This document shows positions 5,353 through 33,021 of a stretch of 37,191 nucleotides of DNA, piece by piece. The position numbers and the translations under genes are program-made. Source of the DNA: an uncultured Butyrivibrio sp. Its GTDB lineage: Bacteria; Bacillota; Clostridia; Lachnospirales; Lachnospiraceae. Location: positions 1-37,191 of the forward strand of contig CAMVJI010000009.1 of NCBI GenBank assembly GCA_947167765.1, given 5' to 3'. Every line of letters begins with the position of its first letter. Within the stretch, counting starts at the first letter, position 1. The notes beneath the pieces were generated by a model. The model made no database searches. It was not told the DNA's origin and saw nothing but the letters and a program-made list of their open reading frames with translations.

Positions 5353-5389
5353 TATTAAATATTTTCTGTAAAAAGTAGGAGGTTTTACA

Positions 5390-7126: not shown

Positions 7127-7127
7127 A

Positions 7128-7202
7128 GCACTTGGTGAGGTAGTATCGAACCTAGTGCGAACCAGTCACGTGCACTTAACGAGGTATTTTCGAGTTTAGT
7201 GC
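7128..7202 (+). repeat. Two tandem 31-bp imperfect hairpins between iorA and iorB
   Basis: Units 7128-7158 and 7172-7202 are each 31 bp. Both have arms of the form GCACTTnnY / RnnTAGTGC that pair with a single mismatch, and nearly identical 13-nt loops (GAGGTAGTATCGA and GAGGTATTTTCGA). They fill the gap between two subunit genes whose products are needed in a fixed ratio. Possible roles are mRNA processing or stability, a protein binding site, or a dispersed intergenic repeat that happened to insert here. There is no T-tract, so they are not simple terminators. Confidence 0.75.
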
Positions 7203-7229
7203 AGCGGGACAAGAATAAGGAGAAGAAAA

Positions 7230-7802: not shown

Positions 7803-7861
7803 GCTATCAGCAAATTTATAAATATTTGGCGATGACACTTAATAAAGGAGGAGAAGAAAAT

Positions 7862-9163: not shown

Positions 9164-9211
9164 TGTAATATAATATTATATCCACACACCACATTTCACA
9201 GGAGGATAACC

Positions 9212-9702: not shown

Positions 9703-12700
9703 CTAATTATTAGCTTGATTAACTGCAAGTCTTTTTATCTCTTCTTTGATCTTTATAGCCTGATTGGTGTAACCTTGCTTGATCTTGGCGATTTCTGTCA
9801 GATATACTCCCTCTTTTGCGTCTACATCAATAAGGTGACAACCCTTGACTTTTATGGCCAGTTCCTGAAGGGCTTTTATCTTTTCCTCAAATAAAGGCTC
9901 TTTATCCGGGGCGATGATCAGATCTTTACACTCATTCATAAAGCTAAAGTCCTGTATCATCTCATAATCCTTGCCGCCCATTTTGACAGTGATCTTTCTG
10001 CCCTCTTCCATATCTTTCTGGATGATCTTTTGAGCCTTAACCTGATATTTCTTTTCCATCCCCTCTACATCTTTGTTGAAATAGATCTTGTGTTTTACAA
10101 ATATTTCAGTACATTTCTGGACGGTATTTATGTATCTGATAAGTGGAACCAGCTTTTGCTTCTTAGTCTTTCCTATAGTATCTGCCTTCTTAAAGAGAGC
10201 CTTAAAGGGCTCCTTCATAGCTTCATAGTATTCTTTTTTTATGTATGGATTCTGGATGGGCGACTCCAGGTTATCCTCATCCCAATCAGGGCAAAGGTCT
10301 TCCTGAATGTGGTTCTGAAGATCAAGGTTTCTTCTTGCATCATATAAATTCTTTTTGATAAACAAAAGCTCATCTATCTCGTAATCCTTAAGCCCCTTAT
10401 CCTTAAGGGCTTTTAGATCAGACATTTGATCTTCAAACCATATTTCAAGTTTATGAACATCAGGTGCTTTAAGGCCGCCTACAAGAGTTGTCAGTCTTGG
10501 CTCAGTATCTTTTATGTACTTGGAATCAACCTCCTTAGGTATCGAGTCTCCTGCCTTATCAATGAGCGTACTTAGCAATCTATTCTCATATTCTTTCTGA
10601 GGTTCACCTTCATTCCGGAAAAGTCCAAATTTCTTTACCTGTAGGTAAATGGCTTCTTGTCTTTCAGCCTCCTTTTTCATCCTGGGCTCAGCTAATGCAT
10701 TCTCTCTATCCTTAGCGTTTCCACCTATCTTAAATGAGTCTTTTTTATCTCTAAGTGTCTTGTAGTTAGAAAGGAAATCAACAAGCTCTTGATCTTTTTC
10801 AGCGGTAGCATCATCAATCTTTTCCTGCAGTTTTTCATCAGAAAGCTGATCAAGATCACCTTGGGACTGTAATACATAGTGATTTGAAGTCATCATGGCT
10901 ATTCTGGTATCATAATCAGCCTTAACCTCCAAAAGGGCATCCAGGCGGCCCTCCAAAGCACTTAAAGCCATTTTCTTTCCGGTAGTAAGGACGTTATCCT
11001 TCTTTGCGATATCTACGGCACTTTTTAAAGACTCCGCCCTTTTTAGCCATATATAGTTATCCTTTATCTTGGCAGCAAACTCTTCATCGCTGCCATAATT
11101 GAACCTATTGATATCAATCTCAAGGAGTTTATTCCCATCAGTAACTATATTATTGACAATATGGCCATAACTCTCTTTTGTATCTGTTCTTTTAGTGATC
11201 AGATCGTCATCTTTGCACCAATCCAATGCATATTGGAAGAAGTCCTTATCGATCTGTTTTGGCAATTTCTCTTTGACACCCTCTTTTTCCTCCCAGACTT
11301 TTTTGTGCATCAGATAATTGAACATCGAATTCTCAGTGGCCCCGGCAATACTCAGCTGCCTTTTATCAAGAAAAGACTCAAGGCCTTTACGCATTTCCTG
11401 TTGAATCCTGCTCTTTTCCATATCTCCCTGAATCTCTCCGGAAAGCAGCTGTCTGCCCAGCTCAGTCTCTTTATGTGCTACGAGCTTTTTCCTCATGGCT
11501 CCATTAAAAGTATCCGGGAAGTTATTATGGAAATAATCCATGGAAGTTTTCTGTCTGGTGTTAAGGTGTTTTTCAACCTCATCCGAGGTGGCTCTTTCAA
11601 CGACAAAACAATTGTTGTAATTCCGCGCAAAATTTTGATAATCCAAGCTACGGTTTTCAATGTTCATCTGGTCCTCAGAATCTGCCTTACTGACACCTTG
11701 CTTGATATTATATCCGTCGCCTGCTCTTCCTACGAGATGTTTGTCGGCAATAATACGGTTCACATAAGTGGAAAAAGTAACCGCAACTCTTAATTTTTGT
11801 ACTATCTCAGGGTGATCAGTTTTGTATTCTTTTACAAATGGATCTACACTTTCAAGGTTCGATATGGTAAGTGAGAAATTCATTATATCGTTTATTTCTG
11901 CCGGATTTTCTTTAAGCAGCCGGTCGACACCCTTCTTCTGTATCTCTTCAGGACTTGGAATGGGTAATTTCATAAAATACTCAAATCTATTCTCCAAGAC
12001 CTTATTCTTTTTCTCTACATTTCCTTTAGAAAGGGCATCCAGCCACTCCTGGTTTTCCTTCTCCTTTAAAGCCTCCACCTTATTCACAGGAAGCCCATTC
12101 TTATCTTTGAGCACAGTTTTAAGGCCAGCGGTCAGCATGCGGCCAACATCACCCGGTCTAGCCTTATACCCCTTATACATTCCATTAAGTTCAAGGTTTT
12201 CAAGGACATCATTGTACTTTTGATCTGTAGCATATGAGTTCATGGATCGCATTTTGATCAGTACTTCAGCGTCTTCGCTGTTGATATCCTCGTTTTGCGC
12301 CTGAAGCTCTTCTGTTTTCTTATCAAGCTCTTCAGGAAAACCAAGTCCATTTTCCCACTGCTTTGTTACCGGTGGGATCATCTCCTTCATAGCGTTTTCG
12401 TACTCAGACAGCTTCTCCTCTATTTTGGAGAGTTCTCCCTCAAGTACATTTTTCTGCTTCTCATTCGTCTCATTTTTAAGCAGCTCTCTAGCCTGTTCAC
12501 GCAAAATGCGCTGGCATGAAATATTGGCCTTAAGGACCCTGTACTTCTCGTTCTCCTTGCTTGTACTCTTAACCGCTGCAGCCTTTTCCATTCCTTCAAG
12601 TCTGGCCGTCATGATCTCTTTACGGTGTTTTAGCTTATCAAGTGAAGTTACTTTAGAGTTATTCTCAAAATCTTTCTTGTACTTATCCTCAAGTTTTGCA

Positions 12701-13065
12701 GTTTTCTTGAATGCTGCTGCAGCCTGCTTGGCACTCTTTTTGCGCTTTCTGGCTGAATGGTTTTTGTACTTGGACGAAAACATATCCATATCGGTCTTAT
12801 CGCGCGCAGAGACAGGATTTGCAATACTGCGATAGCGGGCAGCCTTGGCTTCCATCACCTCTGCATCCTGAAAATAATATTTGGTACGGTCCAGAATAGA
12901 TCCTGTTTCCTCACGCTCAGCAAAATGTTCATTTAGCTGTTCAAAGCTAAGATCATAATCGCTGGAGATCTCTTCAGATCCAAATCCACGCGTTTTCTCA
13001 TGGTGCAAAAAGAGATCTTTATCAGTTTCTTTTTTGATATTTACATAATCATCAAACTTTGGCAT
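9703..13065 (-). CDS. Giant-protein module A: 1120-aa Lys/Glu-rich helical protein of unknown function
   Basis: No family is recognised. The protein has no signal peptide, no membrane segment and no sorting motif, so it is probably cytoplasmic or released by an unknown route. Residues about 80-235 are highly charged and probably coiled coil (ARKRKKSAKQAAAAFKKTAK and following); more helical charged stretches continue to the C-terminus. Around residues 585-620 the pattern FNYLMHKKVW...QIDKDFFQYALDW resembles the repeat of the 2922-aa neighbour (DLMVGKKIF...GIDWGLFANALKF), which suggests common ancestry. It starts at ATG 13065, with AAGGAG 7 nt upstream overlapping the stop region of the GNAT gene before it (11-bp gap), so the two are surely co-translated. 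It is the shortest of three giants in this locus. Structural scaffold, effector or acylated substrate are all possible; none is shown by sequence. Confidence 0.9.
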   Translation of the reverse strand: MPKFDDYVNIKKETDKDLFLHHEKTRGFGSEEISSDYDLSFEQLNEHFAEREETGSILDRTKYYFQDAEVMEAKAARYRSIANPVSARDKTDMDMFSSKYKNHSARKRKKSAKQAAAAFKKTAKLEDKYKKDFENNSKVTSLDKLKHRKEIMTARLEGMEKAAAVKSTSKENEKYRVLKANISCQRILREQARELLKNETNEKQKNVLEGELSKIEEKLSEYENAMKEMIPPVTKQWENGLGFPEELDKKTEELQAQNEDINSEDAEVLIKMRSMNSYATDQKYNDVLENLELNGMYKGYKARPGDVGRMLTAGLKTVLKDKNGLPVNKVEALKEKENQEWLDALSKGNVEKKNKVLENRFEYFMKLPIPSPEEIQKKGVDRLLKENPAEINDIMNFSLTISNLESVDPFVKEYKTDHPEIVQKLRVAVTFSTYVNRIIADKHLVGRAGDGYNIKQGVSKADSEDQMNIENRSLDYQNFARNYNNCFVVERATSDEVEKHLNTRQKTSMDYFHNNFPDTFNGAMRKKLVAHKETELGRQLLSGEIQGDMEKSRIQQEMRKGLESFLDKRQLSIAGATENSMFNYLMHKKVWEEKEGVKEKLPKQIDKDFFQYALDWCKDDDLITKRTDTKESYGHIVNNIVTDGNKLLEIDINRFNYGSDEEFAAKIKDNYIWLKRAESLKSAVDIAKKDNVLTTGKKMALSALEGRLDALLEVKADYDTRIAMMTSNHYVLQSQGDLDQLSDEKLQEKIDDATAEKDQELVDFLSNYKTLRDKKDSFKIGGNAKDRENALAEPRMKKEAERQEAIYLQVKKFGLFRNEGEPQKEYENRLLSTLIDKAGDSIPKEVDSKYIKDTEPRLTTLVGGLKAPDVHKLEIWFEDQMSDLKALKDKGLKDYEIDELLFIKKNLYDARRNLDLQNHIQEDLCPDWDEDNLESPIQNPYIKKEYYEAMKEPFKALFKKADTIGKTKKQKLVPLIRYINTVQKCTEIFVKHKIYFNKDVEGMEKKYQVKAQKIIQKDMEEGRKITVKMGGKDYEMIQDFSFMNECKDLIIAPDKEPLFEEKIKALQELAIKVKGCHLIDVDAKEGVYLTEIAKIKQGYTNQAIKIKEEIKRLAVNQANN

Positions 13066-13076
13066 AGGACACTCCT

Positions 13077-13898
13077 TTAGATAAGCTCAGCTTCATATAC
13101 AGGAACAGATTTTATTTTGGGGTAAATCTTTTTGGCTATAGCAGCTGCCTTGTCATTAACTGCATCAAAGATAAGCTTGCAGTCCGGATAGTACTGTTCA
13201 ATGTCGGCAGCTGCACCTGCAATTATTTCTCCCAGGGCAACAGGATTTATGCTGTACAGGTACGAAAGCTCCAGTTCCTTTTCAGATAATCTGTGGATGA
13301 ATATCAGTGAAAGAAGCTCGTCATTCCTCATAATGCACCTGCACAGTTCCGGAACCAGATCTCTTTTCCACTCCTCATAGTCACCTGTTACAAATCCCTC
13401 TTCGTCAGATAGCATTCGCAAAATGTTCTGCTGAACTCCCTTTGGCATGTCAAAAAATTTGACTTCCTTAAGTGACTCTTTCCCCGTGATCATAGGGTAT
13501 CTGCCCTTGTAGATATCATTTGGCTTAAGGATATATCTGTCGTGGGAATAAGTAACCTCCATCCCCTCATAGGATAAAAAGAAAAGGTAAAGCTGCTCAT
13601 CATCGCCCTGAAACCTCGCAGTTATCGGGTATACCTGTCCGGACTTTATAAGGAGCTCTCTCATCTTATCAAGTAGTAATGTGGCAATCTTCTGCCTCCT
13701 GTATTTTGGAATGACATAGAGCCAGAGTATATCCACCTGATAATCAGCACTACCATAGCAGATAACTCCCATGATGTTGTCATCATCATCCATTGCAGCA
13801 AGGCAGATATTATCAGCATCCACAATGAATTCCCACGGCATGATCACCTTGAAATCATCCATGACATCTTCGTTTATCCAAACATACTTCATGTTCAT
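13077..13898 (-). CDS. GNAT-like acyltransferase of giant-protein module A
   Basis: A 273-residue protein. The N-terminal lobe (about 1-125) follows the GNAT acetyltransferase pattern: a central strand LWLYVIP, then the acyl-CoA pyrophosphate loop region PKYRRQKIA (residues 64-72) and the helix TLLLDKM. The usual RxxGxG/A glycine is Lys here, so cofactor binding may be weakened. The C-terminal lobe (about 150-273) looks like a second, degenerate GNAT half (SLIFIHRLSEKELELSYLYS, then a long helix). The two-lobe plan and the length match the proteins at 22732 and 30776. It precedes the 1120-aa giant gene by 11 bp. GAGGGGG lies 3 nt before ATG 13898 and 9 nt before the second ATG two codons later, so the start could be 13892. 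A partner role for the giant protein is inferred from the threefold repeated gene order. Confidence 0.85.
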   Translation of the reverse strand: MNMKYVWINEDVMDDFKVIMPWEFIVDADNICLAAMDDDDNIMGVICYGSADYQVDILWLYVIPKYRRQKIATLLLDKMRELLIKSGQVYPITARFQGDDEQLYLFFLSYEGMEVTYSHDRYILKPNDIYKGRYPMITGKESLKEVKFFDMPKGVQQNILRMLSDEEGFVTGDYEEWKRDLVPELCRCIMRNDELLSLIFIHRLSEKELELSYLYSINPVALGEIIAGAAADIEQYYPDCKLIFDAVNDKAAAIAKKIYPKIKSVPVYEAELI

Positions 13899-13935
13899 AA
13901 GCCCCCTCTATCGCTATATTTTTTATGTCTCCTGT

Positions 13936-13963
13936 AAGACAAAAGAACCGTCCCTGTGTCTTG
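13936..13963. repeat. Partial GGGACGGTTCT-type intergenic repeat
   Basis: AAGACAAAAGAACCGTCCCT and the following GTGTCTTG match one arm of the repeats at 1404-1480 and 23638-23705. The ends AAGACA and TGTCTT can pair. It fills the 68-bp gap between the 2922-aa giant gene (stop at 13967) and the next GNAT gene. No T-tract follows on the minus strand, so read-through from giant gene to GNAT gene is likely. Confidence 0.7.
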
Positions 13964-13966
13964 TTT

Positions 13967-16900
13967 TTACCTTATATCCTGGCCCATGAGTCTGTTGTAT
14001 ACTCTCTGGGCTGTTTCGTTATCCTGCTTGCCAATAGCGTCCTTACAGCCGATAGCAGCAAGGAGAAGTGATGCTCTAAGGAACTGTTTTGCATCAACGC
14101 CGAAAGGACTTGCACACTGGAGCAGTGTCTGAACGATGTGCCACCCTACAAAGGAGGCCTGCTCACTAAAGTCCTTAAAGCCGTAGGCCTTCCTGAAGAG
14201 CTCGGCATTGCTCATTTCGCCCATGAACTCTGTCTCTTTCTTTTCAAGCTCGCAGCCATCCATGATGTCTCTTGTTCCCAGTTTCTTTCTGCCGGTCTGA
14301 TCGCTTATGATCTTGTTTACGTTGTCGCCCCTAAGTCGTTTGATCTCTTCACCCAGAGGTCCGTTATCTGCAAAATACTTATCCATTACAATCTTATCAG
14401 TTACCACACTGGTGATAAAACGTGCAGTTTCCAGAGTTTCCTGTATGATCATCCTGATACCGCCCACAAAGAAGTTGGTGACAGCCTGAATACCGATACT
14501 ACTTCCAGAAAGGACGTTGACGCAGGTAGTTGCAGTTTCAATGATATCCCTGGCGTTGGCTCCAGTTCCTGCAGCAGCTGAAACCTCCTGCAATATCCAT
14601 TCCTTGTTGAGCTGGTTGTCCTTTGTAACCAGCTGCTGTTCCTTGGTCTGGCGCTTCTTGCCTTCTTCCATGCGTTTCTCAGTCTGCTTCTTTAGCTCTT
14701 CCTCATTCTCCACAGGCTTACGGATTTCTTTTATACCCTTGCCATCAAGATAGATGTTATAGATTCCCATAAGTCCGTTGGCTGTCTGCTCAAGGCTCTC
14801 ACCGCCTATTGCAAAGCCGGTCTGAACAGCCTGGCCGACCACCTGAAGCACTGCAGATGTGGACTTGGTCACTGTACCACCGATTTCAGCATATCCAAGA
14901 TAATCAGTTGCAGTATTCTTGGTAATTCCAGGCTTAACAATTCCGGTGCTCAGCATCTTGTTTCTCATCTGAGGGCTAAGGCAAGCCATCATGATCCTCT
15001 GACCTACTGCATAACCTGGGATTGCCCCTTCAAGCTCTGCCCGGACTCTTCTGCCAATGAACCTTGTGAGTCTGTTGCCTGAGCGGTACAGATTCTTTCT
15101 AAGGAACTTGTAATTGTACATGAAACGTCCGTACTCATCTACATTACCGGTAGCACGGTAGTTTTCTGCTTCGCCTACAAATGTCTTTCTCTCGCCTTCG
15201 GTTCTTCTTACAAACTTAAGGGCATTTGCAAACAGTCCCCAGTCAATGCCAGTTTTTCTGTCAGCACCAATGTATGCCCAGTTAAAGATCTTTTTCCCTA
15301 CCATAAGGTCCACAAAATCTTTCTTCTTCTGTGGATTTCTCTTATCGGAAACCTGTGTTGAAACCAGTGACTGCATGGCTTCATGGATATCCTGCTGATT
15401 GGTGGCCAGGATATTTTTAGCTCCCGGTACAGACAGGTGCTCAATGTAGTAATCCGCCAGCTTGTCCCTTCCAGCCTCATTTACATACTTGTCTTCATTC
15501 ATGCCAATGGCAGTAGAGATATTGTTGTCGGTAGAAACATCCAGTATATCTCTATGCTTAAGAGCGTGAACTACCAGCATCTGCTCATTGTCGGACATTC
15601 CATAGAATGCAGAAATAAGCGGCATAGCCTCCTGTGGATTCTTCTTGGCTTCTCTGACAAGGAAATCCTTGAAGTAATCGAACTGGTTGAATTCCTTCTC
15701 CTTAAACTTACTGTCAATTTCCTTATAAAGATTTGCAGCCTCTTTGTTAGGAGCTGATTCGTCAGTAGTATGCTTAACAGTCTGTCTGCATACCTGGATC
15801 TTTAAGTTCTCAGCTTCAATTTCATCCACCAGATCCATAGCTCTTTCAAGGAGCTTCCAGTCAATCTTGGTAGCACGCTTAAGTGCACCTTTAGCAAAGC
15901 TTTCTGCTGAAACACCGGTCTGATTCAGATCTATGCTATCCTTGAGCTGGAAGCTAAAGAGCGTAGCTGCTGCCTTTGCATACATAGGGTTATCCACAGA
16001 TGTGCACAGCTGTGCGATCATATTCTTGTCCATACCTTCAGAGCTTGAAAGAGATTCTTTTAGGGCATTCCTCTTCTCCTCATTTACAAATGGGACTCCG
16101 CTGAGCATAAGCGCATCCCACTTGCCGTCATTAGTGGTATAGTCAACTACTGTTCTATCCTGAAGGATATGGAGCAGCATGTACATCTGTGTGTCGTTGT
16201 ACTTACCAAGCTTCTTTGAAATCTTGCCCACAGACTCATCAATCTTCATCTCTGAATCTGCATATTTAGTAAAGAACTCCTTGAAGGATTTGGCGCCATA
16301 GAAAGCTCCTGTATCCAGAGCATCCTGAACGATCTTGTACTCCCCGGGCTTTCCTGCAAGCTCTCTTCCGATCTCAGCGGTGTATCTTCCATCTGAGAGT
16401 CTTGCATCCTTAGGCATAACTTCCAGCTTCTTGCTTATGCAGTACTTTGTGTAAGTCATTGCCTTGTCAAAGATAGTCTTGGAAACTCTTCGCAAGCCTG
16501 TCTTTTTGTCAGTCTTAAGGAGCTTGCTCATTACAAGGTTGTAATCGATCTTAGGAGCAAAGTCCTTTCCGTAGATATAGGATGAGAGCTGCTCCTGAAG
16601 TTCTACCTCTTGGCTGATCTGCTTATCCCTGTCAACCATTACAGAGTTGGATGAGAGCTTATCGGAATCCAAAAGCCCCATTTCAGGGAAGGTAAGCACC
16701 AGTGCAAAGACCTTCTGTTCCTCGCAGGTAAGGTTGTTATACTCATTTATGAGATCCTCCCTGCCGGAAAGGGCAATCTCTTTTTCAACGTCAGCCCTTG
16801 TATAAGTTACTGAAGAGTTCATCTTCTCTGCAGCCGTAACACTATTACTTGAAACATGCTGCATAAGAGCCTTTGAGTCAGGAAGATAGGTGAGCGCCAT

Positions 16901-19900
16901 CTTTTGAGTGCTCTCCTTTGAAAGAGTTCCCTCTGCCTTGACCTGATCACCAACAAGCTTATCTACAGCGTCATTTATGCTATCTGTGAACTTCTTGATA
17001 TCAAGCTTTCCATCTTCGTTTATGTTTTCAAAGATATCCTTCTTTAAGTAATCAAAAAGTCCAAGCCTTACGCCCAGGTCTTTACTTACCTGTTCTATCT
17101 TCTGGCCGCAGATATCTGCAAGTTCAAAGTACTGTTTCTTTTCACTGCAGATTTCATGGAAGTCCTCTTTGCTCATGGTAAAGCGAGCCATGTTCATCTC
17201 TTCCATGAACTCGTCATACTCACGTTTTGCCAAAAGAGATTTTGGCTTAGCCATATCAAGTGCTTCATTCCTAAGCTTAAGCTCATCCAGTATCTCTTTT
17301 ACGTCGCCTTCGTTTGTGCCATCTAATGGAAGCTCTTTTCTTATGGCATTCTGAGCAAAAGCAAATACAACTGCCTTCTTGATCTCATCTTCAGATAGTC
17401 CCCCATGGGCGCGCAGGGCACTGTCAAGGGTAAGTAGCCTTTTCTTGTCTGCTGTAATGTAGTCAGAGAGCTTCTTTTCCTCAACCTTACCATAGGCAAT
17501 AACTCTCTCTGCAAGAAGTCCTTTTATGAATTCAGGATCTGCCTTGCCATAGTTATCGTTCAAATGGATATATACAAAATCTGCCGCATTATCTATAGCC
17601 TTTTGTGTGACAAGTTTTGGATCTGCATTATATGCGAAAAGACCTATTGTGCCCAGGGACTGCTTCTTTTCTGCAAACTCGTTGTACTTCTTTTCTTTAT
17701 TTCTCTGAAGGAGTCTTCCCTCGCCCTTTCTTATCTCAATACCAAGACGGATCTTCTCTTTTGTATCAAGCACAGTCCTGTCGCCATAGATGTCTTTATT
17801 CCTGTCAAGACCAAGGGCTTCCTTGTACTTCTTGAGGTTACCAAGGAATGAATGCCTGAACTCACTTTCATTTAACAGATACGCCTGAGGATTCATGATC
17901 TGCATAAGAAGACTGTAGTCTGCAAAGACCTTATCTTCCTCTGTGATCTCCCTCTTTGCATCAAGATCACTTAAGATCTTCGTAGAGCTCATGAGCTCTT
18001 TTTTCTGCTTGACCGCTCCGCCTAATGTGAATACATTAGCTGCCTCTTTGTACAGATCATCATTTTCTTTGACACTTGTGTGGGCCTTATTTTTCTGGGC
18101 TTCGTCATAGATGACCATCATGGTCTCATCCAGATACTGCATGTTCTTTTTGTACTGGTCTTCTATCTTTTTAACAGCTTCAAACATATCGTCTTCACTG
18201 TACAAAAGCGCGAAGGAAGCTGGATCTGCACCAAGGATGTAGGTCAGCTTCATAAGAAGGGTGCCAGAAGCCAATGATTTATCAATGCCCGCTGAGCACA
18301 TTCTTTCCTGGACATTGTTAAGTATGTCTCTGACGCTCTTTCCATTTATTTCCTTAAGATAGAATCCGTCATGGTAGTTCTTTATAGAGGTGTACCACTG
18401 ATCCTTGTTCCAGCTCTTCCTGCCCTTGAAGGATTGCCAGTTCTCCATGACATACTGCTCGTTAATGGGCATGGATCCTCTGAAGTCATTACTGGACATA
18501 ACATCAAGGCCCACACCGATCTCTGCATCCAGCTGCTTCATGAACTCTTCAAACTCGCTGTCGGTGGTGGTCATGATCTTCTTATAGATCTCAGGATCCT
18601 TCATCATCTGGTCTCTTACAACCTTGAACTTGCCATCCTGTCTTTTTCTGGGATCCCCATAATTATCGATGTAATCTCTTCTTCGTAAGTAGAGCTTTCC
18701 GATCTCCTCACTTTCTTTACGCGCCTTAACGCACTTATCGTCGCTGCCATAGATGTCCATAAGCCTCTGGGAAAGGTCAAGAAGGTCTTCAACTCCATAT
18801 TTTCTGACGTTTTCTTCTCTGTCTTTCTTGTTGTGAGTGACCTTAAGTCCCGCAATTACAGGTTTTAACCTGTTAAGGATCTTACTAACTTCCTCGGTTT
18901 TAAGGTCCTGTCCCTGTAAAATAGCAGTAAGCTGCTGTCTCTTGATTATTAAGTCTCTACTCTTTTCTACAATATCTGCGTAGTACTGATCATCTCCAGA
19001 ATCAAGGAATGCTTTCTCTCCGACGCCGCCTGCTCCAAAGTACTCTTTGCCGCAGCCAAACAAAAGCAATTCGCCCATACAGTCAGCCATTTCAAGCTTC
19101 GTTGATGAAGAATCTGCTGCTATGACATTGGCAAATATTGCCTTCACTGCAAAAAGAGTTTCAAGATCCATCTCCTGGATTCCATGATCTTTTCCGAGGT
19201 ATGTACTAAGCTCTTTTACAGAGTTCTTATCAAGAACCCACTTTACAGCCCCTGTACCTTCCTCATATGTTTTGGTGATCTCCATTTTTTTAATGAAAGT
19301 ACCAAAATCCCTGATCCTGCCTTTAACTTTATCAGCCGGAACCTCTTTTAAAGTAGCAAGGAACTTCTGGATAAGCTTGGTGAATCTATCCTCATGCTCA
19401 GGGTGCAGCCCAGGCGCAATCTGGGTTTCATCGCTCTTTGCCAAGTTCTTCCAGAAGGTCTCGGCAAAGTTGATCCTCTTGATCCTCGCCACCTGATTCA
19501 CCTGTTTGCCCTGAATATTCTGGTAATTGAATTTAAGGTAAGTGTTGTTAGGGTCAAAGTCTGTTGCCAACATAGCATCAAGGCGCATTCTGTTGACACT
19601 TTCCTCTCCGGCCATGACCTTTGTATGCTCCTCTTTCCTCTGTCTAAAGAGCTCTGGAGTCATCTGAAGAGTGAGGAAGTCTTTCATTAGCTTTTTCTTA
19701 AGGCCATATACGCCGCAAAACTTCCAGTCATCTAAAAGAATGCCATCTGCAGCCTTATCATCCTTGTAGCTTCCAACTGCAGACAGACTGAGCTTAATGT
19801 CCGCAAAGAACTGCGCATAGTCCACAACTCCAAGATTTGCAAGCTGCTCTATGCTCTTAACATCCTCAAGGTATGGGTATCTTGCGTGAAGAAGACTTTT

Positions 19901-22735: not shown

Positions 22736-23613
22736 ACTCTTACCTCTTTAATGCTTTCTTTTACCTTTAGCTGCTCCAGATATTTACCAAGATTAAATTC
22801 CGCATCTGCCATGATCAGCTCTGCTGTCTCCGGCTCATCGAAGAATGAATCCATTACCTTCTTAAGTTTTTCATTTGCTGCCACAAAGGAAATGTACTTT
22901 GGCGGGTTCATGCTCTGACTGGCATTTTCAACTGCAAAGGAAAGGAACCTTCGAAGGATCGTTGGATCATCAGTATCTGTGAAAAGATGAGTTACCTGGA
23001 CCTCATTCTGTCCCTGGTCCCTGTCAGCAAGAAGAAGCGCTTCAAGCTTGCCCTCCTCATTAAGGGCTGCAACACTTAGCTCCACGCTGGCTTCACTTAC
23101 ATCCCTTACAGTTATGTCTATATCTTTGATCTGTCTGATATCATCTAAAACAGCACTTATCCCGCTGGCCAGATTGACCATTATTCCGCTGTAGCTTCCG
23201 CTTTTTTTCGACGCAAGCTTCTTGTGTACTGTATCAAACGGCAAGCGGCACTCACGAAAATGGCGAAGACTTATATCAAACCCGTGGTCCGAAAAGAGCC
23301 TGCTCAGCTCCCATCCATGATCACCGTTATATTCAAACACCGCTGTGAGCATACTGGAGGGTTCCGATTTTGGAATATACTGATCCAGATAGAGCTCAAG
23401 CATTATATCTCCGTATCTGTGTCCCTGATAAAGACTTGGTACCATGAAAAAAGATATCTCGCTGATACCATCGCTTTCCGTTATCTCCATAAATCCCTTG
23501 TACTGCCCTTCATCACTTAGGCCATACCAAAAGACATTTTTCCCTTCCTCAGGCATATCTGCCGGCATGTTGTTTATCTGTGCTTCAAACAACGATATCT
23601 GCTTAAGTTCCAT
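22732..23613 (-). CDS. GNAT-like acyltransferase of giant-protein module B
   Basis: A 293-residue protein. The frame is open to a TTG at 23676 inside an inverted repeat, but ATG 23613 has AAGGAGG 5 nt upstream and is chosen. The N-terminal lobe has the GNAT strand-loop-helix ISFFMVPSLYQGHRYGDIML (residues 53-72), with YQGHRYG in place of the classical Q/RxxGxG loop. The C-terminal lobe (about 165-280) again looks like a degenerate GNAT half (LEALLLADRDQG, then VTHLFTDTDD and a helix). The layout is the same as in the proteins at 13077 and 30776, but sequence identity is low. The stop overlaps the start of the 2922-aa gene (ATGA), the tightest coupling in the locus. It is likely to act on, or with, the giant protein made from the same message; the substrate is unknown. 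Confidence 0.85.
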   Translation of the reverse strand: MELKQISLFEAQINNMPADMPEEGKNVFWYGLSDEGQYKGFMEITESDGISEISFFMVPSLYQGHRYGDIMLELYLDQYIPKSEPSSMLTAVFEYNGDHGWELSRLFSDHGFDISLRHFRECRLPFDTVHKKLASKKSGSYSGIMVNLASGISAVLDDIRQIKDIDITVRDVSEASVELSVAALNEEGKLEALLLADRDQGQNEVQVTHLFTDTDDPTILRRFLSFAVENASQSMNPPKYISFVAANEKLKKVMDSFFDEPETAELIMADAEFNLGKYLEQLKVKESIKEVRV

Positions 23614-23637
23614 GTTTTCCTCCTTAAAAGTCATGGC

Positions 23638-23705
23638 CAAGACACGGGGACGGTTCTCTTGACTTATTGCACGCAATGAGTCAAGAGAACCGTCCCCATG
23701 TCTTG
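23638..23705. repeat. 33-bp inverted repeat of the GGGACGGTTCT type
   Basis: The arms 23638-23670 and 23673-23705 pair at 31 of 33 positions around a 2-nt loop. The arm begins CAAGACACGGGGACGGTTCT, nearly the same as in the perfect palindrome at 1404-1480. It lies just upstream of the module B GNAT ribosome binding site and downstream of the predicted promoter at 23731, so it would be transcribed as a strong hairpin in the 5' untranslated region. Confidence 0.85.
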
Positions 23706-23730
23706 TTTGCTCTTGACTCCATACATTTCA

Positions 23731-23736
23731 ATTATA
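23731..23736 (-). promoter_or_regulatory. Possible -10 box of the module B operon
   Basis: On the minus strand TATAAT occurs 118 bp upstream of the module B GNAT start and 15 bp downstream of the strong terminator of module C. This is where a promoter is expected if the modules are separate transcription units. No clear -35 is present at 16-18 bp. Confidence 0.35.
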
Positions 23737-23751
23737 CGATTTATAAAAGAA

Positions 23752-23787
23752 AAAAGCAGAGAAAACCGTGTGGTTTTCTCTGCTTTT
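23752..23787 (-). terminator. Strong Rho-independent terminator after the 2307-aa giant gene
   Basis: A 16-bp perfect stem (23752-23767 with 23772-23787; arm AAAAGCAGAGAAAACC) has a 4-nt loop and is followed on the minus strand by TTTTTCTTTT. It starts 19 bp after the giant gene stop. It separates module C from module B. Confidence 0.9.
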
Positions 23788-23805
23788 AAGAATATTTATA
23801 CTTTT

Positions 23806-26800
23806 TTAATCAACTGAATTGATACTGAAGAGATCGTTCAGAACTGGATCTGCCTGACCATTCTGCTGTTTTTCAATCTCTTTCTTTGCCTTCTCCTTTT
23901 GCCTGCACTCTTCGAGGTATTCTTCCTCTCTGGACACAACGTATGCCCGTAACATTTCGAAGATGTTTTCAGCATCAAAGAATCTGTCAGTGTACTTTGC
24001 AAACTGGCCTTTATAAGACTTGATGACCGTCAGCTCGTCGCTTGAGTATTGCTTAAGAACTAAACTAATATTCTTTGAGCCTTGATTTACCAGGACCTTA
24101 TCATATACATCCGCAAGAATTATCAATTCTCTAAGGTTTGCAAGTGTCTTGGCCTCTGCTTGCTGTTTTCTCTTTTCCAGGAATTCCGTATTGCTGCGGC
24201 CATATTTCCTAAGCTTAAGCTTTTCTTCGTCTGTAAGGCCATTAAGCATGAATTCCACATCGTCCTTGATCTTTGATTTCTTCTTCTTTGCAAGGATGGC
24301 ATCAAATGTTTTATGGATCTGCGTAGGCATTGCTGCATCTTCTCTGTCAAGCATCGTCTGCCTTGTTTCCAATGCTTTATACTCCTTGAGATAATCACCG
24401 CTCTTTATATACTCCTGCTTAGCATTGAAAAGCTGGATCGCATTCTCTCTGGCCTGGGTGCTTACTTCCTTACCCATTTCCAGGGCATCGCTCTTGGACA
24501 TATTCGCTTTGCCCTCTTTAGATCTTGTTATCTCAGCAAGTGACTCGTCATAGATATTAGCATTTACAAGACTTCCGTCGATCTTAATTCCATTCTTTAA
24601 GAGATAAGCACTAAACAGATCAAAGTATGTAGAAACCATAAATCTTGTCTTTGGATCTGAAAAAATGGACTGGATCTTTGTCAGAGAATTGAGCTTGTTA
24701 GGCGACAAAAGCTTTGTATCATACTGTTCAGCGTGTGCTTTTCCATTTTTATAAAGGTCCTCATACACTTTATAATAGTTGTCAAATACACTGTCAGCTA
24801 CTGTTCTTTGTGCCTCTGCTTCTCGTGTAAGATTATTGATCTTACTATCAAGTTCCGCCATCTTCGCAGACTTATCCTGGATAAGGAGAGAATTATTAAT
24901 CACTGACTCCGGTGTCGCTTTTAATCGCAACATATCCATCTCCAAAGTTTCTCTCTGGTCTATCAGATTTCTAAGCTCCTTGTCGTAATTCTCAACCTTG
25001 GCCTTCATCTTGTCATATTCTTTTTCTGCAATCTCTTTAGCTTCCCATTGCGTGTACATATCCTTTTCATTGCCAGCTTTAGTAAAGGCCGATTCTATTT
25101 GTCTTCTGTAGCCTGGAATGTTGAAACTATCATTGCCATTTTCATAGAGAACGCAGAAATTCATTGCATTTATCATACTCACATAGAAGTCTGGATCCTT
25201 CTCTAATTTTTCTTTAAAGAAGTCGTCTTCATAAATGGCTTTTCCTGTTGCTACAGGCTTACTGATCTTGCCCATATCAAGCTTAAGGTCGCTGATCATC
25301 TTGATAACATTGTTACATTTTTCTTCATCTACAACTGAAAGGTTAGCCGCAATATTTGAAACATCATCAGAAAGCAGATTCTTAAAGCTGATCACCGTAG
25401 ATTTGGCATTTATCTTGCTGGTTGCACTTGTAAGTCCCTTCTCTGGGGCCATAAAGAACAGCATCTGAGGGTGGTAGGAATTGGAAACTGTAAATGTAAC
25501 CTCATCGGTGCTCTGCTCCTTTAATTTAAACTCATAATACTTTTTCTGTGTCTGCTGATAAGCGTCAGTATAACCATGATAGAACTTCTCAAGTTCATTA
25601 GCTTGTTTTTTATCACCTTCCTTAAGGCCATAAGTATCTCTCTTGACAACAGTCTTTTTGCTGTCACCTACCTTTACGTAGTCCTCAAGTCCAACACCCA
25701 CAAGCGTTCCAGATACTGACTGTCTGATCTTCTGAGCCATCTTGGTCTGGGCATAGGCAGTCTTCATTGTGTCTAAGCTATCTGTAACTTTAGCCTGTGC
25801 ATCAGAAACATTTTTTCCGACCTGCATCTTGAGAGCCTTCTGCTGATCCTGTAGCTCTTTCTGTTTCTTTAGAGCCTCTTCATCCTTTGACTTCTTATCA
25901 ACGTTCATCTGTGTTTGCAGAGTCTCAATCTCTTCAGGTGCAAGTCCAAAGCTCAAGCCGCCTTTTTCTGTAATACCATACTTATTGGCAACAGATATGA
26001 CTGCATTGTAGAAAAGAACGTAGGATTCACCATGACCTTTGTCGAAATAATCCCTGATCCTCTGCACAGTATTTCTCTTTCCATAAACATCATATAGTCT
26101 GTCAAAGCTCTCTTTTTCACCGTAATATAACTGCTGGAATGCAAGAAGCTTATTTGCATTGAAATAGCACTCTGCGAAGTTATTTACGATATAGTCCTCA
26201 TTCACATCATCAATCTTTATTGATTCACCAACTTTAAGAGCGTCCTCCGCAGCTTTAACAAGGAACTCGTCCCTGGTCTCTACGTGAAGATACTTATCAA
26301 CATCCGCTTTGTTCTGGTCTTCTTTGTTTATGTTAGACTTAGTTACTGATTTTCCTGCAAAACCGACCTCATGACTTCTAAGCAGGAACATAAACTGCTT
26401 TTCATCTATGCCCTTAAGGTTCAGGTCTTCTTTTAACTCATCAAGAAATCTGGGGTTCTGCATGTCATTTACAGAAGCATTAGTTTCTGCAATGGTTTCC
26501 ATGATGTTCTTGATCTTATCGATGTTTTTCTTTGCAAACTCCTCCTGTCCAAACGCTTTACATCTTTCTACAAGGACCTCCTTGCTGTCCTTGGCATTTT
26601 TCCAGATGAAATAATCGTTCATGGCAGTCTTATCTTTTTTATAACGTCTAAGCCTTAGCTCAGCTTCAGCCCTGGCTCCTTTTGATAATGTAAAGAAGAA
26701 CGTTTTAGTAGCCTTGGTGAGGATATCTTCAACCTTATTTTCGTCAAAGAATTCCATATCTCCGGCCTTTTTATGAATATACTCAAACAGCTCATCAACA

Positions 26801-29800
26801 TAGTTCCTAGGCGCAGGCATATCCATTTTCTTAAGACTGTTTTCTATGAAATCCTTCTTTTGTCTCTTTCTGGCTGTGATCCAATCTTCGCCTTTTTCAA
26901 GATCCTTCTCGTTCTTTTTGATCTCTTCTTCCTGGGCACCATAGGTAAGATACTGGTACAAAGTAACATTATCCTTGAGCTGGTCAAAGTTCTTTTCAAG
27001 TCTGTCTTTTTCTTCTTCCAGGCTCTTTAACTGTGAATCATATTTACTCTTTACCCTGTAGGCGACAAACTTGTATATGTTCTTCTTTTCGATTCTCTTA
27101 TCCCCTTTATTATAAAGGGCTTTCATCTCCTCAAAAGACAGCTCCTCCTGAGTTGCCTTCTCATCATCCATAAGTCTTCTGATCTTAGCAATTTCAGCGT
27201 TTACCTCAGCCTTTCTCTTGCTTTCTGCTTTTTCTCTTTCAGTTAATGCTTTTCTTTCTGCATCAAGCTGCTTCCACTTGCCAGAGAATGACTGATCTCC
27301 AGTTATCAGATCTCGCTTCATTCCCTTTCTCTTTAAGTACTTATAATCATCCCAATCAGCGATACCGTGATCAGCCAGAAGCATTCTGACATACTCTCTA
27401 AAGTCTGACAGAAGCATTTCCTGCTCTCCAAGTTTATCCAGTTCCTCACCAGAATATATCTTTGCCATGAGATCGGGATTTTCTTCATCTGTCTGATGAT
27501 TAAACCCAATATAATTGTCGATGAATTCCATTTCACCAAGTATATCTCTAATATTTGAAATTATGCTGGCATCATCAACACTACCATTCTTACAGTACTG
27601 GGTCTTTACTTTGTTAAGGATGATCTGGAATTTGTCTTTATAAGTCCTTAGGTATTTTGCCTTTTCATCATCAGTAAGCTCTTTTCCGTCTCTCTCTTTT
27701 TTCATATTCTCAAACATCTGCGTGAAGTAGTTCACATTAGCATGCTTGGGAAGTTCCATACCGAGTTTAGAAAGGCACTCAGCTTTGTTTTTAGCAAAAT
27801 ACTCACACTGCTCCTTGAGGAGGATGGCATTATCCACTCTCTTATTAACATATTCTTCTTTATTTTTTGCTCCACTAAAGACACGTCCATCCTTTACAAG
27901 TTCATCATAGTCTTCACTAAAGAGCTTTCTCGTTACGTATAATGCATCATCTTTATAAATCTGGGCTATATAAGAATCCAGAGCGCTCTTGCCAAGGATC
28001 TTGATTTCTTTAGCCTGGTAGTTATTGGCTTCCTTCATTCCAAGCATAAACTTATTGAGCTCATTGAGCTTATGGAGCTTAGCGTACTCAGGATCCTCTT
28101 CAGTGATATTAGGATGTTTCTGTTTAAAGTCATCAAGCTTATCCTGAACCTTCTTCTGCATATCAGTCATTGCAGAAAGGCGGTACTCTTTATCAATACC
28201 TTCAATGATCTGATTATTGCCCTCCATATTTGGCGTATCATAGATGTAGGAGTATGCCTCAGACTTCGTATAATCCATAGCTCCCTGCCACCTATGGAAA
28301 TAATCTCTAAGGAGTCTTCCTTTTGCCCTTACCAGGATCTTGTCATTATTTGAAAGTGTGTTGTAATCAGCAGGTCCCTTCCTGTCAAACTCAATACCGT
28401 CACATATCTTGATAAATTTCTTGAGCCAGAAATACTTTTTAAAGGTGTCAACATTAGTGACATCCAGCTCCTTTGTAATGTTGTAATCTTTCTCAAGCTG
28501 TTCAGGTGTGATCTTTACTATCTCTGCAATTGATATTTCAGGATCGCTGATCTCAGGCTGGTTTTCATACTCAGTGAAATTCTTCTGAGCTAACATGCGT
28601 CTTTCAATGTTATTGAGCATCTGAGGATTCTTAACATCCTTCTGGGTCTTACCATCAACCAGCTTGTTTACGAAACGTGTTCTTTCCATTCCCCTCTTAA
28701 GGAGAGTGTAGTTGTACTGAGCCTGCATGTCTTCAAGCTTGATGGTCTTACCACCAGCAACTTCGATCGTATCGAACTTTTCGAAGTCATAGTAATCAAG
28801 AGTCTTGTAGAACAGGTCATTATATTCAAAGGCCTCTTTAAGCTTAAAGATATGTTCAAGACCTTCGTACTTAAGGACATTCCTAACAGAAGGAAGTGCA
28901 TTCAGCTCTAATTCCTTCTTAGTGAGATCAATATTGGTAAAGAAGTCGATAGTTCCCTTGTAATTCTCAAGCTGCTGTTCAAGGATCGATGTTTCCTCTT
29001 TAATACGGACTTGTTCCTTGTCAATATAGTCTTTCCAAATCTGTTCAAGATCTGGAATACCTGTTTTTTTGCCCCCAGTGATACCCTCCTTTGAATTTGC
29101 TTTTCTCGCAAGCCCTTTTATTGCCTCATTTCTTGCTTTGAGCTCATCAAGCCTTCTCATCTGTTCGTTGTACTTGTTGAAGATCTTATCGATCTCACTG
29201 CCAAACAGATCATAAATCGCAGGTTTTTCCATGATCTGTGCTTTGAGTGCCTTAAGCTTTTCTTCGCCCTCACCAGTGGCATCGTACTTAAGCTTAAATT
29301 CTGTCTCTTCCTTATTCTCCTGCTTCTGATCCTTTTTCTGATCCTGATCCCGCTTCTCTACTCCAGCTTTTTCTGCTTTTTTCTGGCGGGTTTCATTTGC
29401 CTTGTTCTCAATTTCGTCAAGCTTTGCCTTCATCTTGGCATCAGCCGCATCATCCATATAGTCAGTTGTAGAATTGTATGCCTTTTGTAAAGTTTCCCAT
29501 GTTTCTTCTACAAACTTCTGGTATTCTTCTTCTCCGTTTAATCCATCTTTTTTCTCTTCATAACTTAAGAAACTTATGGTCCTGCCTTTTTGTGCCAGTC
29601 CTTCATCTTTCTTGTAACCGCAGTAACGGGCATGGGTCTCCATAAAAGTCTTCATGATAGGCGCGATCAATATGATCCTGCTCCAGATTACAGCTGCGAG
29701 ATCAGGGTCTGTGTGATCTTTGCTGTTCATATCCAGATAATTAGGATTGCACTGAGTAAGAAAAACAAATGAATTAAGCATATCCGTGTATCTCTGCATC

Positions 29801-30729
29801 TGTAGCATATTTGCAGCCAGATACTTATTGCTGAGCATATTGGGAGTCAGTTTGAAATTGATGAGCTTAAGTGCAAGCTCATTCATCACTTTCGTCCTTC
29901 CGCCATCTTTATTTGCTATGTACTCTCTCATGATCCGCTTGTTATACTCGGATCCGTCTTTACGTTCTTCTTTGGTCTCTGTGCCCAGAAGTCCAACCTG
30001 TTTTTTCCAAAAGATGACTTTTTTGGTCATGCTAAAGAAAGGCCGAATGCCCTTGTCCATTTCATCCTTGCAGGATACTTTATTTGCAGTAAATTTGCTG
30101 AGAAAATCAGCCCCCCTCTGCTTAAGGCCTTTCCAGGTTCCTGTCAGAGCTCCAAAGAACTTGCCATGAGCCTTCATCTGTCTTTCGTATATCTTTCCCC
30201 AGTCCTGTACTACAACATTCTTGTCCTGACCAACATACTTATCATAGATATCTCTCTGGTTATTTCTTGAATGGAAATAATCTTTGTGATATGCATTGTA
30301 CTTATCAAGTGCATTCAATTCCCTGACTGTATTAAGGCCAAAATGAAGCATTGGCCGATCTTCCTCAAGCGCACTACTCCTGTAATCGTTTATTTTTTTC
30401 TTTTCATTTTTCCTTGTTTTGTACCAGGAACTCTCAGCAGGCTGCTCCTGCCTGTCGAACTTGCCCTCCATTGATGAATGAATAGCGACCTGCTCAATTT
30501 TCTTAAGTCTGTCCTTATAATCGGTTTCCTCGTTGGCTTCCCACTTTTGGTAGTAGTTTTCCATAAAGTTCTGCTTGTGTTCGCGGTAAGACTGCTCACT
30601 CCAGTCCTTCTGCATATCCACATTCATTTTCGTAAGGTTCTTATTCACAGACTCAGTTGTAGTCTGCTGTTTTTCTAGAGATTCTAATACTTTTTTCTGT
30701 TCTTCCTTTGTTACCTTAAATCCATCCAT
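23806..30729 (-). CDS. Giant-protein module C: 2307-aa charged coiled-coil-rich protein of unknown function
   Basis: A 6.9-kb frame without known family. Very rich in Lys, Glu and Asp, with predicted coiled coils at about residues 420-480 (KAKLDEIENKANETRQKKAE), 1150-1260 (QLDAERKALTEREKAESKRK; KSLEEEKDRLEKNFDQLKDN), 1600-1680 and 1885-1980 (DKELRNLIDQRETLEMDMLR). A short hydrophobic stretch occurs near 350 (VIWSRIILIAPIMK). No signal peptide, sorting motif, nucleotide-binding loop or catalytic motif is seen. It starts at ATG 30729 with AAGGAG 8 nt upstream, 46 bp after the module C GNAT gene, and is followed by a strong terminator. Local similarity to the other two giants is not obvious by eye, so the link rests on gene order, size, composition and the paired GNAT. 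An elongated scaffold or a releasable effector are both possible. Confidence 0.9.
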   Translation of the reverse strand: MDGFKVTKEEQKKVLESLEKQQTTTESVNKNLTKMNVDMQKDWSEQSYREHKQNFMENYYQKWEANEETDYKDRLKKIEQVAIHSSMEGKFDRQEQPAESSWYKTRKNEKKKINDYRSSALEEDRPMLHFGLNTVRELNALDKYNAYHKDYFHSRNNQRDIYDKYVGQDKNVVVQDWGKIYERQMKAHGKFFGALTGTWKGLKQRGADFLSKFTANKVSCKDEMDKGIRPFFSMTKKVIFWKKQVGLLGTETKEERKDGSEYNKRIMREYIANKDGGRTKVMNELALKLINFKLTPNMLSNKYLAANMLQMQRYTDMLNSFVFLTQCNPNYLDMNSKDHTDPDLAAVIWSRIILIAPIMKTFMETHARYCGYKKDEGLAQKGRTISFLSYEEKKDGLNGEEEYQKFVEETWETLQKAYNSTTDYMDDAADAKMKAKLDEIENKANETRQKKAEKAGVEKRDQDQKKDQKQENKEETEFKLKYDATGEGEEKLKALKAQIMEKPAIYDLFGSEIDKIFNKYNEQMRRLDELKARNEAIKGLARKANSKEGITGGKKTGIPDLEQIWKDYIDKEQVRIKEETSILEQQLENYKGTIDFFTNIDLTKKELELNALPSVRNVLKYEGLEHIFKLKEAFEYNDLFYKTLDYYDFEKFDTIEVAGGKTIKLEDMQAQYNYTLLKRGMERTRFVNKLVDGKTQKDVKNPQMLNNIERRMLAQKNFTEYENQPEISDPEISIAEIVKITPEQLEKDYNITKELDVTNVDTFKKYFWLKKFIKICDGIEFDRKGPADYNTLSNNDKILVRAKGRLLRDYFHRWQGAMDYTKSEAYSYIYDTPNMEGNNQIIEGIDKEYRLSAMTDMQKKVQDKLDDFKQKHPNITEEDPEYAKLHKLNELNKFMLGMKEANNYQAKEIKILGKSALDSYIAQIYKDDALYVTRKLFSEDYDELVKDGRVFSGAKNKEEYVNKRVDNAILLKEQCEYFAKNKAECLSKLGMELPKHANVNYFTQMFENMKKERDGKELTDDEKAKYLRTYKDKFQIILNKVKTQYCKNGSVDDASIISNIRDILGEMEFIDNYIGFNHQTDEENPDLMAKIYSGEELDKLGEQEMLLSDFREYVRMLLADHGIADWDDYKYLKRKGMKRDLITGDQSFSGKWKQLDAERKALTEREKAESKRKAEVNAEIAKIRRLMDDEKATQEELSFEEMKALYNKGDKRIEKKNIYKFVAYRVKSKYDSQLKSLEEEKDRLEKNFDQLKDNVTLYQYLTYGAQEEEIKKNEKDLEKGEDWITARKRQKKDFIENSLKKMDMPAPRNYVDELFEYIHKKAGDMEFFDENKVEDILTKATKTFFFTLSKGARAEAELRLRRYKKDKTAMNDYFIWKNAKDSKEVLVERCKAFGQEEFAKKNIDKIKNIMETIAETNASVNDMQNPRFLDELKEDLNLKGIDEKQFMFLLRSHEVGFAGKSVTKSNINKEDQNKADVDKYLHVETRDEFLVKAAEDALKVGESIKIDDVNEDYIVNNFAECYFNANKLLAFQQLYYGEKESFDRLYDVYGKRNTVQRIRDYFDKGHGESYVLFYNAVISVANKYGITEKGGLSFGLAPEEIETLQTQMNVDKKSKDEEALKKQKELQDQQKALKMQVGKNVSDAQAKVTDSLDTMKTAYAQTKMAQKIRQSVSGTLVGVGLEDYVKVGDSKKTVVKRDTYGLKEGDKKQANELEKFYHGYTDAYQQTQKKYYEFKLKEQSTDEVTFTVSNSYHPQMLFFMAPEKGLTSATSKINAKSTVISFKNLLSDDVSNIAANLSVVDEEKCNNVIKMISDLKLDMGKISKPVATGKAIYEDDFFKEKLEKDPDFYVSMINAMNFCVLYENGNDSFNIPGYRRQIESAFTKAGNEKDMYTQWEAKEIAEKEYDKMKAKVENYDKELRNLIDQRETLEMDMLRLKATPESVINNSLLIQDKSAKMAELDSKINNLTREAEAQRTVADSVFDNYYKVYEDLYKNGKAHAEQYDTKLLSPNKLNSLTKIQSIFSDPKTRFMVSTYFDLFSAYLLKNGIKIDGSLVNANIYDESLAEITRSKEGKANMSKSDALEMGKEVSTQARENAIQLFNAKQEYIKSGDYLKEYKALETRQTMLDREDAAMPTQIHKTFDAILAKKKKSKIKDDVEFMLNGLTDEEKLKLRKYGRSNTEFLEKRKQQAEAKTLANLRELIILADVYDKVLVNQGSKNISLVLKQYSSDELTVIKSYKGQFAKYTDRFFDAENIFEMLRAYVVSREEEYLEECRQKEKAKKEIEKQQNGQADPVLNDLFSINSVD

Positions 30730-30775
30730 ATCTAATGCTCCTTACATTTGAAAATTAAAATGTTTTATCGTGTCT

Positions 30776-31615
30776 TCAGATCACGTATCTGTATCTGCAG
30801 GAGATATCGTTTATATCCTCAAACAGGTTCAGGATTATATCTTCTCCAGCTTCATCAACTGGCTGGATCAGTATCCTGTGATTCTTAGTGAATTTCTTTT
30901 GCAAAAGATCTGTGCTCTTCTCTAACATGTGCAGCAATTCTACCGGCGACTTGTCCTTAGAATGTATAGCTGACAAAAGCAACAGGTCTTTTGATATATT
31001 TTCAAATACAAGATAGGACTCGAGAATTCCGTTATTTATGATGCCCACGCTGACATCCTTATCTATCCTTGGTGATGTAAGTCCGTTAACAGGCGTCATC
31101 GCGCCTGTCTTTTCAGCTTCACCTGTTGCATGCTTTAACAGCTTTGGGTCTATCTCAGAAAACTCTATGCCACTTCCTTTTTTTCCAAAGAGCTTGGTAT
31201 TCTTAAGATCCCCAACTGTTGTCAGGTAGCAGTCATATTCAGGATCTGCGTACGTAAATCCGTACTCCTCAAGGAAGTTTGCAAGGTCTTCCTGCTCTTT
31301 ACCATAGATTAGGAATTCCGTGTTAAATTCCATGTTCTTTTCGCCAAATATTCTCTTGGTCTCATCCAAAAGAAATTTTCCAGCACCTCTGCCTCTATAC
31401 TCCGGTGCAACATAGAAGGATGTTATGTTTAAAAGAAAATCATCCGGCCTTATACATATGGCTCCGGCAGCTATGTTTTCGCCTTTTTTAAGTTCGTCAG
31501 CCACAAGCCCGATTGGCAAGATCTTAAGATCCTCGTTTATGAATTTCTCATCTTCTGAAGTGATAAAGCTCTTAAAATACTCAAGATTGTCCTTTGTGAT
31601 AGTTGTGATCTTCAT
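30776..31615 (-). CDS. GNAT acetyltransferase of giant-protein module C
   Basis: A 279-residue protein with the clearest GNAT signature of the three. After the strand ITSFYVA comes PEYRGRGAGKFLLDETKRIF (residues 71-90), where RGRGAG is the canonical Q/RxxGxG/A acyl-CoA loop. The end of the N-lobe, LANFLEEYGFTYAD, is typical of the GNAT 'poorly conserved C-terminal strand' region. The second lobe (about 150-279) has a degenerate GNAT-like order (ILESYLVFENISKDLLLLSA, then a long helix). Catalysis is therefore plausible here, and less certain in the two paralogues. ATG 31615 is preceded by GGAAGGCGG. A good promoter lies at 31646-31674, so this gene opens the module C operon. The substrate is unknown; the giant protein encoded next is the obvious candidate. 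Confidence 0.9.
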   Translation of the reverse strand: MKITTITKDNLEYFKSFITSEDEKFINEDLKILPIGLVADELKKGENIAAGAICIRPDDFLLNITSFYVAPEYRGRGAGKFLLDETKRIFGEKNMEFNTEFLIYGKEQEDLANFLEEYGFTYADPEYDCYLTTVGDLKNTKLFGKKGSGIEFSEIDPKLLKHATGEAEKTGAMTPVNGLTSPRIDKDVSVGIINNGILESYLVFENISKDLLLLSAIHSKDKSPVELLHMLEKSTDLLQKKFTKNHRILIQPVDEAGEDIILNLFEDINDISCRYRYVI

Positions 31616-33015: not shown

Positions 33016-33021
33016 CCTCAA

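Follow-up and report, generated by a model that had tools for sequence, protein, structure and literature searches.

The stretch of DNA analyzed here, called the window below, comprises 37,191 nucleotides from an uncultured Butyrivibrio sp. and is the complete contig C9 of a source genome of 2.95 Mb in 310 contigs that is 79% complete. Its minus strand carries, at 9703..31615, three intact gene pairs in which a small GNAT-type protein is followed by a very large protein, or giant. The six-gene alternation described in an initial annotation of this DNA is thus real. Read in the direction of transcription, the pairs are P0006 (30776..31615) with the 2307-aa giant P0005 (23806..30729; family D), P0004 (22732..23613) with the 2922-aa giant P0003 (13967..22735; family C), and P0002 (13077..13898) with the 1120-aa giant P0001 (9703..13065; family B). 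P0004 has 293 aa counted from its ATG, and its open reading frame (ORF) reaches further, to a TTG at 23676. In one pair, the GNAT and giant genes overlap by 4 bp, which suggests coupled translation.

The small proteins have the GNAT character first ascribed to them. P0002 matches Acetyltransf_1 (E=1.5e-7) and P0006 matches Acetyltransf_7 (E=6.3e-8) in Pfam, and the predicted model of P0004 is a tandem GNAT whose closest solved folds are also tandem GNATs. A resemblance of P0006 to succinylglutamate desuccinylase in NCBIfam (18.1 bits, where the cut-off is 170) was judged to be chance. As for the giants, P0001 gave nothing above cut-off in Pfam, and no match at E<=0.1 in NCBIfam or at E<=1 among PDB sequences; its N-terminal ~450 aa are common to 11 of the 12 other members of family B, the twelfth (L075) being truncated. 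The C-terminal 823 aa of P0003 are all-helical in the predicted model (pLDDT 59.5). Nine loci in named records are related to this part, the six closest being from Butyrivibrio (SIG344, SIG347, FCS014, and others), and none of 111 pattern-matching stretches in viral contigs encodes a relative of it. On the Kyte-Doolittle scale, the 19-residue segments of highest hydrophobicity in the three giants have averages of 0.8 to 1.7. Glutamine is enriched 2.4-fold in the first 45 residues of the giants, a property of the set to which P0001 is an exception. Among sister partner proteins from other modules, three contain a calpain domain above cut-off, and three have Fam20C or PI3/PI4-kinase-like matches, all of them sub-threshold.

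These pairs belong to a widespread family of modules. The source genome alone has 16 family GNATs spread over 12 contigs. A profile built from ten of them found at least 67 matches (E<=1e-20), distributed over 24 of the genus's 79 genomes, and a broader profile (E<=1e-15) found matches in 19 of 397 genomes of the bacterial family, representing 17 of 334 genera. All such counts are lower bounds, since the best thirty GNAT candidates per genome were scored in the genus, the best six in the family, and the best two in the search for P0003 relatives. Regions were then selected for the presence of a GNAT, of a P0003 relative, or of genes for an extracellular contractile injection system (eCIS), and they yielded 115 family GNATs that are non-identical rather than non-redundant. 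Directly downstream of 83 of these lies a same-strand ORF of at least 400 aa (median 1295 aa; median gap 23 bp), whereas only 13 of 95 control ORFs of 240-345 aa from outside the family directly precede one. Another 13 GNATs have such an ORF only on the preceding side, and 5 stop at a region edge. Seventy-three partner proteins from the genus fall into six clusters (20, 13, 12, 7, 5, and 4 members) and 12 singles, some of which may not be true partners; P0001, P0003, and P0005 each belong to a different cluster. On a GNAT tree of 58 rows, the partner cluster changes seven times, where the minimum is five and the shuffled mean is 33.7, and none of 200 shuffles gave so low a number. The conserved gene order, and a GNAT tree that follows the families of the giants, uphold the idea of cognate pairs. 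Nor do the giants usually occur without a GNAT: among 19 distinct P0003-family giants with visible context, 14 adjoin a family GNAT, one of these being a weak match (L091).

The GNATs follow one end of their giants. Nine of the 83 modules were dropped before this comparison, a GNAT more than 85% identical being retained in each case, and among the remaining 74, all of which were kept, some are probably mispaired (a SpoIIE protein, AAA ATPases, a lipoprotein-like ORF, and an eCIS core gene). When 450 aa at each end of the giants were compared, or half the protein if shorter, GNAT similarity showed a partial correlation of 0.67 with the giant N terminus given the C terminus, which exceeds all 1000 permutations, and of 0.12 with the C terminus given the N terminus. 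Counted as pairs, GNATs are related in 43 of 47 cases when the giants are alike at both ends, in 53 of 81 when alike at the N terminus only, in 1 of 50 when alike at the C terminus only, and in 90 of 2523 when alike at neither. The N-only and C-only classes differ at p=1.4e-11, with the caveat that pairs are not independent. One allelic comparison separates the two genes further. P0005 and its counterpart in genome G006 (L127 7156-13983) share 60% amino acid identity, with synonymous divergence (dS) saturated, whereas their GNATs are 96% identical. Here the giant alone has rapidly diverged or been replaced; thus, a GNAT can persist while its giant diverges.

Because sister proteins carry effector-like domains and one neighborhood contained an AAA ATPase, we tested the modules for association with the eCIS tube family PF06841. 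Of the 79 genomes in the genus, 21 have both a family GNAT and a tube, 3 a GNAT only, 5 a tube only, and 50 neither (p=1.4e-11, Fisher); in the 47 high-quality genomes, the corresponding counts are 7, 1, 0, and 39. Across the bacterial family they are 16, 3, 27, and 351 (p=1.6e-14; 397 genomes from 334 genera), or 15, 3, 27, and 351 without the source genome (p=1.2e-13). Fisher tests take genomes as independent, which is fairer over 334 genera than inside one. The genomes with a GNAT only are G018 (81% complete), G003 (60%), and G042 (99%) in the genus, and G156 (60%), G279 (68%), and G212 (99%) in the family, where the G212 match is a short frame (open frame 146 aa; ORF 128 aa). Conversely, G069 was kept as tube only per the threshold and has a weak family GNAT (L090, E=5.5e-11) beside a P0003-type giant. 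Tube carriers in the family are of two kinds, 21 genomes with a weaker, mostly single best match (about 165-187 aa) and 22 with mostly stronger, often paired matches. GNAT modules favor the former (14 of 21 genomes versus 2 of 22), a split that reflects our reading of E-values and lengths and has exceptions, such as two matches in G463.

The association is also physical. In tube-bearing genomes, 22 of 67 family-level GNAT matches share a contig with the tube, 19 of them within 62 kb. In G489 and G313, arrays of GNAT and large genes border the eCIS operon and continue into it, and a P0003 homologue sits in the G489 array. In G069, minus-strand genes continue from the core of the eCIS, and the last of them, at the 3′ end, encodes a P0003-family giant. 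In G076, a P0003-family fragment, broken by one stop, is about 25 kb away from the tube gene. Three genomes, G048 (two cases), G313, and G262, contain four family GNATs that lie next to an AAA ATPase of the type found at eCIS loci (L156 6846-9791, L258 8837-12137, L270 12455-15728, and L196 617-3846). The source genome itself contains a real eCIS on contig C29, in an operon with sheath, tube, CIS_tube, gp25, baseplate J, spike OB, DUF4280, and Pvc16_N genes. The fact that the modules are found mainly in eCIS-bearing genomes makes it likely that the giants are eCIS cargo. This link is invisible from the 37-kb stretch alone.

Our preferred explanation, which we regard as moderately probable, is that the three pairs are eCIS cargo cassettes in which the tandem GNAT serves as an N-terminus-specific chaperone or loader. 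The injector serving all three would be the one whose operon lies on C29, another contig of this Butyrivibrio genome. Each giant would be a cytosolic effector with a polar N terminus and a variable body, whose own tandem GNAT would recognize its N-terminal domain and keep or present it to be packed into the particle, probably with help from the eCIS AAA ATPase. We infer the chaperone or loader role of the GNAT, as well as loading into the eCIS, toxicity, and a target among rumen eukaryotes or bacteria; the eukaryote-like domains of sister cassettes are no more than a hint as to this target, which might be rumen ciliates, fungi, or bacteria. In the accessible portions of the literature, payload loading in Photorhabdus virulence cassettes (PVC) requires an ATPase (Pvc15) together with N-terminal packaging domains (PMC10097599), and the candidate eCIS loading factors comprise a disordered N-terminal packaging region, an ATPase, and DUF4157 (PMC8213781, PMC10097599).

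That each GNAT modifies or matures its own giant, as the initial annotation had it, fares unevenly: the pairing with an own partner stands, and the modification is weakened. Acetylation or acylation of the giant, as HlyC-like activation or as silencing in the producer, now seems unlikely as the role of the GNAT, though it is a serious alternative. A strict motif for the acetyl-CoA loop, [RQK]xxGx[GA], is intact in 51 of 74 modules (53 of 73 in an earlier genus set), among them P0006 (RGRGAG); catalysis may therefore matter in most modules, a point that counts against a pure loader. The motif fails in the other 23, including P0002 (RRQKIA) and P0004 (QGHRYG), both of which have lost the first glycine, and the loop state changes at least 11 times on the GNAT tree. 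Recounted from the printed list, 17 failures lack the first glycine and 6 keep it (L149, L255, L265, L078, L188, and L134), which makes the argument from loop loss slightly weaker; the loop of L046 may be misaligned. Purifying selection on P0004, which belongs to the 17, is strong despite its degenerate loop (omega, the ratio of nonsynonymous to synonymous rates, of 0.06-0.07). HlyC/RtxC acyltransferases do have a GNAT-related fold, and their genes lie directly before those of very large RTX toxins. Family-level support for this analogy was not found, since Pfam, which includes a HlyC model, returned no HlyC row up to E=1 for P0002, P0004, or P0006, and the nearest folds are tandem GNATs. The absence of HlyC/ApxC chains from the 50 best fold matches listed for the P0004 model carries no weight. 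The GNATs of these modules also differ from HlyC/RtxC in their two-lobe tandem fold and often decayed acetyl-CoA loop, and the modules differ in their association with eCIS and in their giants, for which domain scans of P0001, P0003, and P0005 list no RTX repeat family. In our chaperone or loader reading, the GNAT fold would be of enzyme descent, with the acetyl-CoA loop decayed in between a quarter and a third of modules, and such decay suggests that binding is what the protein still does, whether or not some acetylation persists. Taken together, N-terminus tracking, loop decay under purifying selection, and adjacency to the AAA ATPase favor an N-terminal binding role.

Linkage might mimic N-terminus tracking, because most GNATs adjoin the 5′ end of the giant, directly upstream in 83 of 115 cases, and would hitchhike whenever C termini are swapped by recombination. 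We consider it rather improbable that this is the whole explanation, since GNATs placed 3′ of a giant are also matched to N termini. Of 16 such GNATs, nine have a close GNAT relative (E<1e-30), and the giants of these nine are alike at the N terminus only in four cases, at both ends in two, at neither in three, and at the C terminus only in none; in this small set, the two cases alike at both ends are near copies and one N-only case is a tandem duplicate at the same locus. The same asymmetry bears on the idea of a GNAT acting as immunity protein or antitoxin against its own giant. Cognate pairing would fit that idea, and toxin-immunity pairs are known in eCIS according to the accessible text of PMC8213781, yet the GNATs track the common N-terminal part and not the C-terminal one, where a single C-only pair among the 50 has related GNATs. 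Assuming that the C-terminal 450 aa are the toxin part, we therefore give an immunity role little credence. It is likewise very unlikely that the pairs are intracellular regulatory or defence modules that share genomes with eCIS by chance. The lack of any eCIS gene among the scanned ORFs of the window contig would agree with this, as would G042, with its GNAT match, no tube match, and 99% completeness, whereas the association extends over 334 genera, shows a preference for a single type of tube, and takes in some arrays that are continuous with eCIS operons.

Several observations weigh against cargo cassettes with dedicated loaders. Domain-library scans recognized no toxin domain in P0001, P0003, or P0005, the scanned ORFs of the window contig include no eCIS gene, and 2922 aa is a large size for a protein carried in a contractile tube. 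Small as it is, the partial correlation with the C terminus also lies above all 1000 permutations. Genomes of one genus are not independent in the co-occurrence test, and family-level GNAT scoring took only the best six candidates per genome. Finally, 14 of the 115 GNATs have no adjacent same-strand ORF of at least 400 aa within 150 bp, and 5 of the 19 P0003-family giants, operon-embedded ones included, have no adjacent family GNAT (L086, L092, L093, L210, and L253).

It is useful to contrast the cassettes with systems already described. T6SS (type VI secretion system) adaptors and T3SS (type III secretion system) chaperones are likewise small proteins, each of which binds its cognate secreted effector, often N-terminally, and is encoded next to it; they are not known to have GNAT folds. 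Solved tandem GNATs include 2wpx (clavulanic-acid pathway), 5kf1 (glucosamine acetyltransferase), 7q3a (MAB_4324), and 1ozp/2c27 (MshD), at about 10% identity, and the family GNATs differ from these in their genetic partnership with giants and eCIS. The genes of eCIS-associated toxins (EATs) and of the payloads of PVC and the antifeeding prophage (Afp) are neighbors of eCIS operons and often occupy the 3′ end. P0003 homologues have a comparable position in G069 (3′ end of an eCIS gene run) and in G489 (within an array leading to the operon), and the window contig has no eCIS gene among its scanned ORFs. The accessible parts of the sources place eCIS toxin genes at the operon 3′ end (PMC8213781) and hold that an N-terminal region is thought to guide the loading of EATs and of PVC and Afp payloads (PMC8213781, PMC10097599). 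Unlike these, Butyrivibrio has many cassettes per genome, with very large proteins that each have their own tandem GNAT. DUF4157, a usual companion of EATs that is common but not universal in or beside them in the accessible text of PMC8213781, has no match in the six module proteins or in ten other scanned ORFs of the window.

Thus, eCIS and their payloads are already known, and the new part, as judged from sequence, would be the cognate pairing of giants with tandem GNATs. Giant payload-like proteins with a cognate tandem GNAT were not found in the literature searched, outside of which lie preprints and most subscription papers, and the word "acetyltransferase" is absent from the main texts of PMC11297309 and PMC8213781. 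More tentatively, the 115 non-identical members of the tandem-GNAT family may form a new class of cognate adaptors for contractile injection systems, each reading the N-terminal address of one giant and often independent of acetyl-CoA. How eCIS select such dissimilar payloads and load them is incompletely understood, and partners that follow the payload N terminus make this choice experimentally testable. If such a class of adaptors exists, one type of injector in a rumen bacterium could be charged with a dozen or more interchangeable giants. The 16 family GNATs in one 79%-complete genome would then mark an unexplored effector stock in this rumen genus.

Neighboring genes show some recurring features. 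SpoIIE domains in L090, L093, and L164 and a STAS domain in L086, matched in Pfam, lie near eCIS and giant genes, and SpoIIE-type phosphatase or STAS proteins were recognized in L194, L196, and L210 by reading of the sequence. These recurrent neighbors suggest partner-switching control of eCIS. L086 also encodes, at 15374-19000, a 1208-aa ORF that ends at the region edge and matches Peptidase_C70 (AvrRpt2-like) at 19.2 bits (cut-off 19); three genes separate it from a P0003-type giant. In the window, a sensor histidine kinase (31687-33021; His_kinase and HATPase_c) lies on the same strand 71 bp before the first GNAT and could be cotranscribed with the GNAT-giant genes. On the other side, window positions 3718-9646 hold a cluster of two AMP-binding enzymes, two 2-oxoacid ferredoxin oxidoreductase subunits, and one ACT-pair protein, and at least two other genomes (L080 and L081) have similar ORFs next to their P0003 module.

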